Shown here piece after piece: positions 30,651 to 32,949 of a stretch of DNA of 64,000 nt (its first letter is position 1; each line of letters opens with the position of its first letter). The notes beneath the pieces are model-generated. The model saw nothing but the letters and a program-made list of their open reading frames with translations. It searched no databases and was not told the DNA's origin. The position numbers were made by a program, and so were the translations under genes. The DNA is from Woeseiaceae bacterium (lineage in GTDB: Bacteria; Pseudomonadota; Gammaproteobacteria; Steroidobacterales; Woeseiaceae): positions 62,001 through 126,000 of the forward strand of contig JAJFKU010000066.1 in assembly GCA_021773035.1 (NCBI GenBank), written 5' to 3'.

Positions 30651-30860
30651 TGTCGAAAAAGACCCATTTTCTCGACATATGTCACAAATGCGTTGATGCG
30701 ATCGACATATACTCTGAATCTGTCGATTTTCTTCGCGTTTATCGACATATCGGCGGAACAGGTCGACCGGATCGACATGTTTGATGAATATGTCGAAATT
30801 TTCTGCTTTTATCGACATATTGGCCGAACGTGTCGACGGAATCGACATCGTGCCAAGGCT
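30651..30860 (+). repeat. Three 70-bp tandem units with phased TCGACATAT half-sites
   Basis: The segment between fhs and fic divides into three degenerate 70-bp units starting at 30651, 30721 and 30791. Each opens with TGTCGA and has TCGACA half-sites beginning 21 and 51 bases into the unit. Counting the matches to ATCGACATAT, they start at 30671, 30701, 30741, 30771, 30811 and 30841, giving gaps of 30, 40, 30, 40 and 30 bp. Reverse copies (TGTCGA) begin at 30651, 30721, 30791 and 30831. All spacings are near multiples of the helical turn, and A/T tracts precede the second site. The array ends 17 bp before the fic start codon, so it looks like an operator cluster. Confidence 0.85.
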
Positions 30861-30877: not shown

Positions 30878-32032
30878 GTGACTGATTTTAATCCAGAAAA
30901 ACCCTACAATAGCCTGCCATCGCTGCCGCCGCCCGGCGCTCAGATTGAAACCACCGAGATTCTCAAACGGTGCATCGAATCGCGGGTCGCACTGGCGGAG
31001 CTCAAACAGGCCGCCGAGCTGATTCCGAATTCAGCCGTCCTCGTCAATGCCCTGCCCCTGCTTGAAGCGCGCGCCAGCTCCGAAATCGAAAATATCGTCA
31101 CCACGACCGACAAGCTGTTCGAGTTCGCCGATATCGCCGAGGATCGCGCTGACGCGGCAACCAAAGAGGCCCTGCGTTACCGAACAGCACTTTACGAAGG
31201 CACGAAGATGGTGCAGCGGCGCATGCTGTCGACCGACATGGCGATACAGATATGCAGTACTATCAAAGGTTTAGAACTGGATATCCGCGCAGAACCCGGT
31301 ACAACGCTGAAAAACCGGCTGTCGGGCGAAACCATTTACACACCGCCGGTCGGCCAACAACTGTTGATCGACAAACTCGACAACTGGTCAGACTTCATGC
31401 ATCGCAATACTGACATCGACCCGCTGGTCAGGATGGCAGTGCAGCACTATCAGTTCGAAGCCATTCATCCTTTTGCCGATGGCAACGGCCGGACCGGGCG
31501 TATCCTGAACATTCTGTTCCTGGTTGAACATGGCCTGCTCGATTCACCGATTCTGTACCTCAGTCGTTACATCATCCAGAACAAGGCCGCCTACTACCGC
31601 CTGCTGCAGAAAGTCACCCAGAACGAGGAATGGGCTCCCTGGATAATATTCATTCTCGACGGTGTCGAAGAGACCTGTACCTGGACCACGGACAAGATTA
31701 AGTCGATACGGGAACTCATGCAGCACACGGGGCAGTTCGTGCAGAAACGACTGCCGAAAATCTATTCCTGGGAACTTGTCGAGCTGTTGTTCAAACAGCC
31801 TTACTGTCGCATCGGCAACCTCGTCGAAACCGGTATAGCGAAGCGACAAACCGCCTCCGTCTATCTCAAGCAGCTCTGTGAACTGGGCGTTCTCAAGGAG
31901 GTGAAATCCGGGCGCGAAAACATATTTGTCCACCCGAAATACATCGAGCTACTCAGCGGCGAAGAAAACGTCTGGGTCTACTATGCAGGCGTCGAGACCG
32001 AAAACGCCAACTCTCCTGACCTGGGCAGCTAA
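30878..32032 (+). CDS. Fic-domain AMP-transferase, class II, with C-terminal winged helix
   Basis: The GTG start has GGAAGGA nearby and gives 384 residues. The Fic motif HPFADGNGRTGR lies at residues 197-208, intact for AMPylation (or related nucleotide transfer) of protein targets. An inhibitory helix motif S-x-x-x-E-N is present at residues 67-72 (SSEIEN), the N-terminal arrangement of class II Fic proteins, in which the helix obstructs the active site. After residue 280 the protein appears to have a winged-helix-like region (LVELLFKQPYCRIGNLVETG and TASVYLKQLCELGVLKEV). It could therefore bind DNA, perhaps the array just upstream. The target proteins are unknown. Confidence 0.9.
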   Translation: MTDFNPEKPYNSLPSLPPPGAQIETTEILKRCIESRVALAELKQAAELIPNSAVLVNALPLLEARASSEIENIVTTTDKLFEFADIAEDRADAATKEALRYRTALYEGTKMVQRRMLSTDMAIQICSTIKGLELDIRAEPGTTLKNRLSGETIYTPPVGQQLLIDKLDNWSDFMHRNTDIDPLVRMAVQHYQFEAIHPFADGNGRTGRILNILFLVEHGLLDSPILYLSRYIIQNKAAYYRLLQKVTQNEEWAPWIIFILDGVEETCTWTTDKIKSIRELMQHTGQFVQKRLPKIYSWELVELLFKQPYCRIGNLVETGIAKRQTASVYLKQLCELGVLKEVKSGRENIFVHPKYIELLSGEENVWVYYAGVETENANSPDLGS

Positions 32033-32100: not shown

Positions 32101-32949
32101 TTGAGCACTAGCAAAGATCGGCTGTTTCAGTTCTTCAAGTATGCCGTCTACGCGCTGCTATGCTTCAATATCTACGTATTCTGGCGCGAGGAAGCGCTCG
32201 CAGCGCAGCTGCAGTTTCCGGACGGCGTCGGCACTGCCCAGATCATCGCTTCGTATGCGGCAACGATCGACACGGCCGCGTGGGTCATCCTGTTGCTGAT
32301 GTTCGAACTCGAGACCTACGTCCTCGAGGACCACCACTACAGCCCCACGGTCACCTGGTCACTGCAGGGAGTGCGGCTGCTCTGCTACGGATTTATCATC
32401 TACGCCTTCTACGGCTACGTCACAAAGCTCTTCTTCATTTACGAGGCCTCACATCTGGTCGGAGTCAGCAGTCTCTGTACGCTGGTCGCCGACGGCTGGT
32501 CGTATGCCATCGATCTCGACGAATACACTCAGCTGACCGCCGCTAACTGTCACACGTTTTCCGACGCCGCTTCCTACCTGCGTTTTGAAGCAATGCCCGC
32601 AGTCGTCGACGCGACGGGGCTGCGCGATATCCGCTATCTCGCCTGGGTCGATGTCATTAACGCAGCCGTCTGGCTGCTGATCGTGCTGGTACTCGAATTC
32701 GACGTCTGGCTGCAGGAACGAAATCGCTTCGAGGGTCACGCGCTCCGAGCGAGCCGTGCGATCAAGTGGATTCTGTACCCGATCCTTCTGCTGGCCGCAG
32801 TTTATTGGGGTATCAAAGGCGACTTCGTCGATTTCTGGGACGCCTTCCTGTGGATCGTCGCCTTCGTGTTCATCGAACGCAACGTCTTCGAGTGGCGCGA
32901 GGAGAGCCGTGAATCCGCCGGCGACCGGCCGCTGACAGCAGAGTCGTGA
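32101..32949 (+). CDS. Polytopic membrane protein of unknown function
   Basis: The 282-residue protein starts with TTG, preceded by GGGAG with a seven-base gap. It has about six predicted membrane helices (for example YAVYALLCFNIYVFW, AAWVILLLMFELETYVL, LLCYGFIIYAFYGYVTKLFFI, INAAVWLLIVLVLEFDVWL and ILYPILLLAAVYWGIKG). I do not recognise a named family. It follows fic by 68 bp on the same strand. Confidence 0.65.
   Translation: MSTSKDRLFQFFKYAVYALLCFNIYVFWREEALAAQLQFPDGVGTAQIIASYAATIDTAAWVILLLMFELETYVLEDHHYSPTVTWSLQGVRLLCYGFIIYAFYGYVTKLFFIYEASHLVGVSSLCTLVADGWSYAIDLDEYTQLTAANCHTFSDAASYLRFEAMPAVVDATGLRDIRYLAWVDVINAAVWLLIVLVLEFDVWLQERNRFEGHALRASRAIKWILYPILLLAAVYWGIKGDFVDFWDAFLWIVAFVFIERNVFEWREESRESAGDRPLTAES

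Follow-up and report, generated by a model that had tools for sequence, protein, structure and literature searches.

A conserved operator-like array of paired half-sites precedes SoFic-type fic genes and may serve their self-repression

Results

A three-unit array lies upstream of a SoFic-type fic gene

We analyzed a 64,000-nucleotide stretch of Woeseiaceae bacterium DNA (the window) and examined a repetitive region between a fic gene and a divergent formate-tetrahydrofolate ligase gene (ORF start 30449). The region and the gene contain the following features:

30651..30860, + strand: whole array, three 70-bp units at 30651-30720, 30721-30790 and 30791-30860 (sequence, TRF, shuffles, relatives)
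Plan of each unit: pair15 (27 bp), 13 bp, pair5 (17 bp), 13 bp (sequence)
30651..30677, no strand: pair15 no. 1, TGTCGA-N15-TCGACA (sequence)
30691..30707, no strand: pair5 no. 1, CGTTGA-N5-TCGACA, with a degenerate left half (sequence)
30721..30747, no strand: pair15 no. 2, TGTCGA-N15-TCGACA (sequence)
30761..30777, no strand: pair5 no. 2, GGTCGA-N5-TCGACA (sequence)
30791..30817, no strand: pair15 no. 3, TGTCGA-N15-TCGACA, TATGTCGA...TCGACATA at 0 mismatches (sequence)
30831..30847, no strand: pair5 no. 3, TGTCGA-N5-TCGACA (sequence)
30878..32032, + strand: fic, GTG start, 384 aa, SoFic-type protein adenylyltransferase (ORF, profile matches)
31715..31942, + strand: SoFic-like C-terminal domain (PF21248), winged helix, codons 280-355 (Pfam, model)

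With TGTCGA abbreviated R and TCGACA abbreviated F, each unit reads R-N15-F-N13-R-N5-F-N13, so that arms in the window array lie 15, 13 and 5 bp apart. Two R half-sites depart from the consensus (CGTTGA at 30691 and GGTCGA at 30761), and the one at 30831 is TGTCGA. The same region can alternatively be viewed as a row of 25-bp palindromes, TCGACATAT-N7-ATATGTCGA, starting at 30672, 30702, 30742, 30772 and 30812 in steps of 30, 40, 30 and 40 bp, with a half-site left over at either end. TRF recovered the 70-bp period independently. Palindromes with at most 3 mismatches number five in the window, all within the array, against 0.03 expected from shuffles, and the rest of the genome (5.38 Mb, 76 contigs) holds one lone 3-mismatch palindrome. 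A promoter scan recognized no sigma-70 promoter in the window.

The initial annotation had described six sites at regular gaps, and the forward half-sites indeed begin (T of TCGACA) at 30672, 30702, 30742, 30772, 30812 and 30842, with gaps of 30, 40, 30, 40 and 30 bp; the inverted TGTCGA half-sites that it placed at the start of each 70-bp unit are present at 30651, 30721 and 30791. The six sites are not uniform as it had them, the first reading CTCGACATAT and the last ATCGACATCG. Its distance of 17 bp between array and start codon is true only when measured from where the third 70-bp unit stops; the last half-site, 9 bp long, extends to 30850 and leaves 27 bp to the GTG at 30878. The proposal that all sites occupy the same face of the DNA holds within pairs, where core centers are 11 and 21 bp apart, and fails between units: with a helical repeat of 10.5 bp, distances of 30, 40 and 70 bp correspond to 2.86, 3.81 and 6.67 turns, so successive units are rotated, each against the next by roughly one third of a turn.

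The fic product contains Fic_N, Fic and SoFic-like_C domains by Pfam, and its translation carries an intact HPFxDGNGR motif (HPFADGNGR). It scores 596.8 bits against the SoFic model NF046030, above the curated cut-off of 550, matches SoFic in PADLOC with an E-value of 2.2e-122, and its closest solved chains in the PDB sequence list are SoFic. That list also contains the SoFic entries 9tb0, 9tc4, 9tch, 9tcl and 9vjc. An AlphaFold2 model built from 21 rows (pLDDT 80.3, pTM 0.81) matches the solved SoFic structures 3zec, 3zcn and 3eqx with Z-scores of 39.8-39.9 over about 350 residues and places helix 323-335 in the recognition position of the C-terminal winged helix. A winged-helix-like C-terminal region had been suggested from the translation, and the PF21248 match, the model and the SoFic identity of the closest solved structures all agree with it. 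By score, domains and fold, we assign the product to SoFic, an anti-phage family. Downstream of fic, an ORF at 32101-32949 matches no Pfam family, and a relative of it follows fic in all five loci compared from the Woeseiaceae set described below.

The array accompanies SoFic genes across genomes and plasmids

The Woeseiaceae set comprises relatives at 77-91% identity in MAGs titled Woeseiaceae, Gammaproteobacteria, Chromatiales or Proteobacteria, 56 related loci in total, from which L053 and L059 were left out of the counts because their contigs start at, or 2 bases before, the match. All 54 loci with upstream DNA, which were obtained in a single scan and do not count as independent, carry the array, with 3 to 10 palindromes of at most 4 mismatches. 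Across the window and these 54 relatives, 226 of 231 steps between palindromes of at most 5 mismatches are exactly 30 or 40 bp; the five exceptions measure 49, 70, 71, 71 and 155 bp, the last in L016 across a run of N. Such near-exact spacing is what would be expected of a docked protein. The 15-bp linker of the Woeseiaceae set has a TAAAAT-NNN-ATTTTA-like consensus that is itself symmetric. The sixth base of the half-site matches across the arms in 126 of 132 N15 pairs versus 39 of 94 N5 pairs, indicating that N15 pairs are the stricter of the two. In 27 of 55 layouts an R-N5-F pair opens the longest chain, in 20 such a pair closes it, and 9 layouts have both; terminal half-sites outside any 25-bp palindrome are thus often kept, which mildly favors R..F pairs as the bound unit.

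We then applied a uniform count, defined as the longest chain of degenerate half-sites in canonical spacing within 420 bp upstream, to SoFic loci from Woeseiaceae, other Pseudomonadota, alphaproteobacterial and Cedecea plasmids and E. coli. Chains of at least four half-sites precede 76 of 78 SoFic loci versus 0 of 61 sister Fic genes, and the longest chain among 6,950 shuffles is 3. The positive loci are the window, 54/54 of the Woeseiaceae set, 10/12 in other genomes, 9/9 plasmid loci and both E. coli loci, which are near-identical to each other. A chain of this length is missing at L062 (chain 3) and at L092 (chain 2), the latter being the clearest miss, with a SoFic of 575 bits in phylum-sample genome G718. 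The tally leaves out L072, which scores 482 bits and is out of frame in its start part, and L073, whose contig is as long as that of L055 and which is apparently the same locus; the protein alignment was made without L056 (a stop in the range taken), L096 and L099, and the upstream DNA of the last two was counted. The expectation that the same motif and spacing would recur before other fic homologs was therefore borne out at these 76 loci, and the description of the array as operator-like is upheld.

Matches above the SoFic cut-off occur in 11 of 369 class-sample and 3 of 398 phylum-sample genomes, the window's own genome being in both. Searching in the opposite direction, from motif to gene, a four-half-site unit with at most 1 mismatch was found in 3 of 398 genomes: the own genome, G706 and G571. 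The unit sits at SoFic in the own genome and in G706 (L091), and is absent from G718, the third SoFic genome of the phylum sample. No fic was seen in the adjoining DNA examined around the G571 unit (L291, G571:C47, 1 mismatch), which has short Cys-rich ORFs nearby.

The E. coli array extends from about -591 to -7 relative to fic, spanning about 600 bp, and alternates TCGACA-type and TAAACA-type palindromes, with some arms mismatched at one position. The fic ATG lies inside the last half-site, as it does in Cedecea L102 and in alphaproteobacterial L094, L095, L097 and L098 and does not in L099-L101. Among 5,426 E. coli genomes the fic gene was matched in 278 and the array query in 233, with at least 80% coverage in 216; because the last 20 bases of the array query fall within fic, the fic annotation at the 25 places listed adds no independent support. 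In some E. coli strains the match is limited to bases 162-631 of that query (L103 2390-3020), suggesting that units may be lost, gained or diverged. Alphaproteobacterial plasmids have a -10-like hexamer immediately after the first TGTCGA and a -35-like element 16-17 bp further up, an arrangement found by a strict scan at 5 of 8 alphaproteobacterial loci, a scan that 38 of 1,520 random positions also pass. Overall, 19 of 76 loci have a sigma-70-like promoter at a pair15, and the arrangement was consistent only on the alphaproteobacterial plasmids. In alphaproteobacterial plasmid loci L094, L097 and L101, fic is followed directly by a recombinase gene and then by repC, a plasmid setting of SoFic that thus recurs.

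Some sister Fic genes have palindromes of other sequence

Inspection by eye of the DNA before 32 close sister Fic genes revealed single palindromes of similar build and other words before at least 8, and none such before 24. These read TGTATAG-N13/14-CTATACA (L083, L108, L109 and L112), TGTTCA-N14-TGAACA (L110 and L116), TGTTAA-N15-TTAACA (L081) and TGTATA-N15-TATACA (L147), and can be summarized as TGTNNA-N13-16-TNNACA-like. Only tier-A examples were used, the tier-B row L127 containing a run of N, and inverted-repeat counts score one long palindrome at several inner gaps; a word-count scan of the sister promoters stayed near its null for most loci. The recognition helix is of AKRQ type in most SoFic versus V(S/T)R.TA-like in most listed sisters. 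Helix type appears to track the upstream word in these sequences, as a correlation rather than proof, with L093 as a counter-example in which the recognition helix is IAKRQTAS and the array is absent. Before a more distant Fic gene on an Ilyobacter plasmid (L105), we noted by eye an ATGGTA-N15-TACCAT sequence together with a 25-bp TACCAT..GTGGTA palindrome; here the geometry of the array is kept and the word is different.

Single units occur in viral contigs

The exact one-unit pattern R-N15-F-N13-R-N5-F, with 24 fixed bases, is present in 28 viral contigs, including L148, L149, L150, L153, L159, L163, L173, L177, L199 and L220, and a control pattern with N14 in place of N15 is present in none. 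A test for SoFic domains covered 31 records, made up of the 28 exact-unit contigs, two further records and L185. The SoFic-like C-terminal family was found in two of the 31 (L197 and L185), with SoFic beside the site in both, and no such domain was detected in 27 of the 28 exact-unit contigs, many contigs being fragments. All 20 records tested contain the N15 pair: 18 have a single copy, and two have an additional 1-mismatch pair. Within one phage group, the unit (at most 6 mismatches) lies at the same intergenic place in 22 of 68 related loci, a number that includes two with little or no upstream DNA, and is oriented 7 times one way and 15 times the other. Variant pairs in this group are complementary in 8 cases versus 21 not under nested pairing and in 0 of 39 under tandem pairing; the nested complementary cases suggest that, in contrast to SoFic arrays, some of the behavior of the phage copies may be that of hairpins.

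A shorter three-half-site pattern matches at least 120 viral stretches, with SoFic at 2 of 120 loci, and these matches are probably mostly noise. Named-phage regions that match the DNA beside phage units contained no unit in the stretch read, the best sites having 9 and 11 mismatches of 24, and one protein searched for in this context had no match. At L382, the match beside the phage unit falls on a tRNA gene.

Discussion

SoFic as the probable binder of its own operator

We propose that the array is probably the operator of the downstream SoFic, bound by SoFic dimers through their winged helices such that the protein represses its own gene. Neighboring dimers would line up along the alternating pair15 and pair5 sites and, once in place, silence the toxic gene that encodes them; repetition of the unit would make repression cooperative and steep and keep the toxin very low, and release would occur when SoFic is drawn off or reshaped, for instance on phage infection. 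On the alphaproteobacterial plasmids, protein on the first pair, where the -10-like box lies, would block RNA polymerase. More speculatively, the one-turn (11 bp) and the two-turn (21 bp) pairs could each accommodate a different shape of the dimer. SoFic as the binder, repression and cooperativity are steps that we infer, as would be any link between binding and AMPylation; the switch by AMPylation raised in the initial annotation is speculative. The array travels with SoFic, is absent from the examined sisters and has no neighboring gene common to the SoFic loci compared, which together make SoFic the best candidate binder. Demonstrated DNA binding by SoFic was lacking as of 2023 according to a study on CbFic2 (PMC10628234).

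By analogy, a distant Fic protein provides a precedent in print for SoFic self-repression. By means of a C-terminal HTH, CccR of Yersinia pseudotuberculosis binds an inverted repeat within the promoter of its own gene and represses itself, in a manner that needs the dimer (PMC9755527). It has in common with the window a Fic protein with a C-terminal HTH and an inverted repeat in its own promoter, here a predicted winged helix and upstream palindromes. The CccR operator, as described in that account, is one site with 10-bp arms 26 bp apart and a different word, whereas the window has alternating pairs in 70-bp units, and CccR is a secreted effector whereas the window gene is of the anti-phage SoFic type (PMC9755527). 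With its arms 15, 13 and 5 bp apart, the window array would thus work like that of CccR without sharing the CccR operator.

SoFic/EcSofic is reported as a single-gene anti-phage system (PMC12249575), and the sections consulted on these proteins describe no operator array (PMC12249575, PMC3667792), in contrast to the window fic, which has one. EcSofic is paired with a 47-aa antitoxin, AS1 (PMC12249575), whereas the window has no room for an AS1-like ORF between the end of fic at 32032 and the next same-strand ORF at 32101. The sections on EcSofic further describe a dimer, leaky expression that is a problem owing to toxicity and a C-terminal domain turned outward relative to ATP-bound Shewanella SoFic (PMC12249575). 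CbFic2 has a C-terminal HTH that binds DNA, and, going by the title of the corresponding paper, (de)AMPylation is induced when DNA is bound; the binding described there used random DNA, with no operator known (PMC10628234). CbFic2 (8cil) and the window model are 16% identical. The AbiEi antitoxin repressors are proteins unrelated to SoFic and belong to a two-gene system in which the antitoxin is the binder, whereas SoFic is a single-gene system. AbiEi nonetheless represents a described case of cooperative toxin-locus autoregulation on multiple inverted repeats (PMC7319586). We recognized no report of the array in literature on SoFic, CccR and Fic operators, with subscription journals and preprints outside the scope of the search.

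Alternative explanations of the array

Another DNA-binding protein, encoded elsewhere, could bind the array and leave SoFic as merely the regulated gene. The units in phage contigs with no detected SoFic domain, the G571 unit with no SoFic seen and the pair15-like sites that precede two paralogous genes of the own genome are all consistent with such a protein. We nevertheless consider it unlikely, because the array accompanies SoFic across classes and onto plasmids, the Fic protein has its own predicted DNA-binding domain, some sister fic genes have words of their own, and no gene is common to the neighborhoods of 31 SoFic loci. In that comparison of 31 diverse loci, the widest real neighbor cluster spans 6, namely the window and five loci of the Woeseiaceae set. 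Other candidates for a shared neighboring regulator were rejected: clusters of 21, 19 and 9 loci and one of 6 that includes the E. coli loci are frames wholly inside fic, and a 26-locus cluster has 44 of 63 members in fic, with the outside members shown in or near the array.

Repeats placed directly before a toxic gene also recall RNA-based control. Type III toxin-antitoxin systems use repeated RNA antitoxins, and transcribed stem-loops could in this manner hold the toxin or its mRNA in check; folding is conceivable for the 25-bp palindromes, the array contains two terminator-like stems against 0.7 expected, and variant arms of the unit stay complementary under nested pairing in one phage group. 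Arms in SoFic arrays, however, match at 1997 of 2574 positions compared with 2044.5 in within-locus shuffles (z -4.6), and agreement below the shuffles gives no sign of compensatory pairing. The 5- and 15-bp linkers are base-exact, which hairpins do not need, and E. coli arms carry a mismatch at one position. In place of the conserved stems of a type III system, the arms do not co-vary; we rejected the stem model for SoFic arrays and regard an RNA function as very improbable. Similarly slight is the probability that the array is a site of recombination, partition or a mobile element, for example of a serine recombinase, that lies before fic by chance. A recombinase gene directly after fic in three annotated alphaproteobacterial plasmid loci and single phage units in both orientations at one site would fit such a role, but fic has no recombinase gene as its immediate neighbor in the window or at either E. 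coli locus, and the array is within 420 bp upstream of fic in all 76 positive loci. As a general partner, a serine recombinase was rejected when a tblastn search with the plasmid recombinase found no match in the DNA examined from 31 viral loci.

Implications for SoFic control and phage encounters

Silencing and release of SoFic are called open in the discussion of a 2025 structure paper (PMC12249575). As the probable operator, the conserved array names a likely control element of SoFic that is directly testable in laboratory E. coli. It also offers a model for the way in which tightly packed dimers might recognize site pairs that alternate between one turn and two turns. Requiring at least four half-sites in a chain yields, in addition, a sequence rule that told SoFic apart from sister Fic genes at the loci examined (76/78 versus 0/61).

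There is a small chance that the array instead stores the toxin, with SoFic dimers held on DNA until infection and phages that carry a single unit interfering through docking sites of their own. Dimers might be inactive on such a filament-like array, and host DNA would then serve as the antitoxin. If this were true, the phage unit would act as decoy DNA that counters an abortive-infection protein or else triggers it unintentionally.

Two pair15-like palindromes in the own genome, at C22:89589-89619 (L271) and C10:36334-36364 (L270), each precede a gene, at about 330-380 bp from the ORF start; the two genes look paralogous, and the palindromes possibly represent second SoFic targets or shared ancestry of the upstream DNA.
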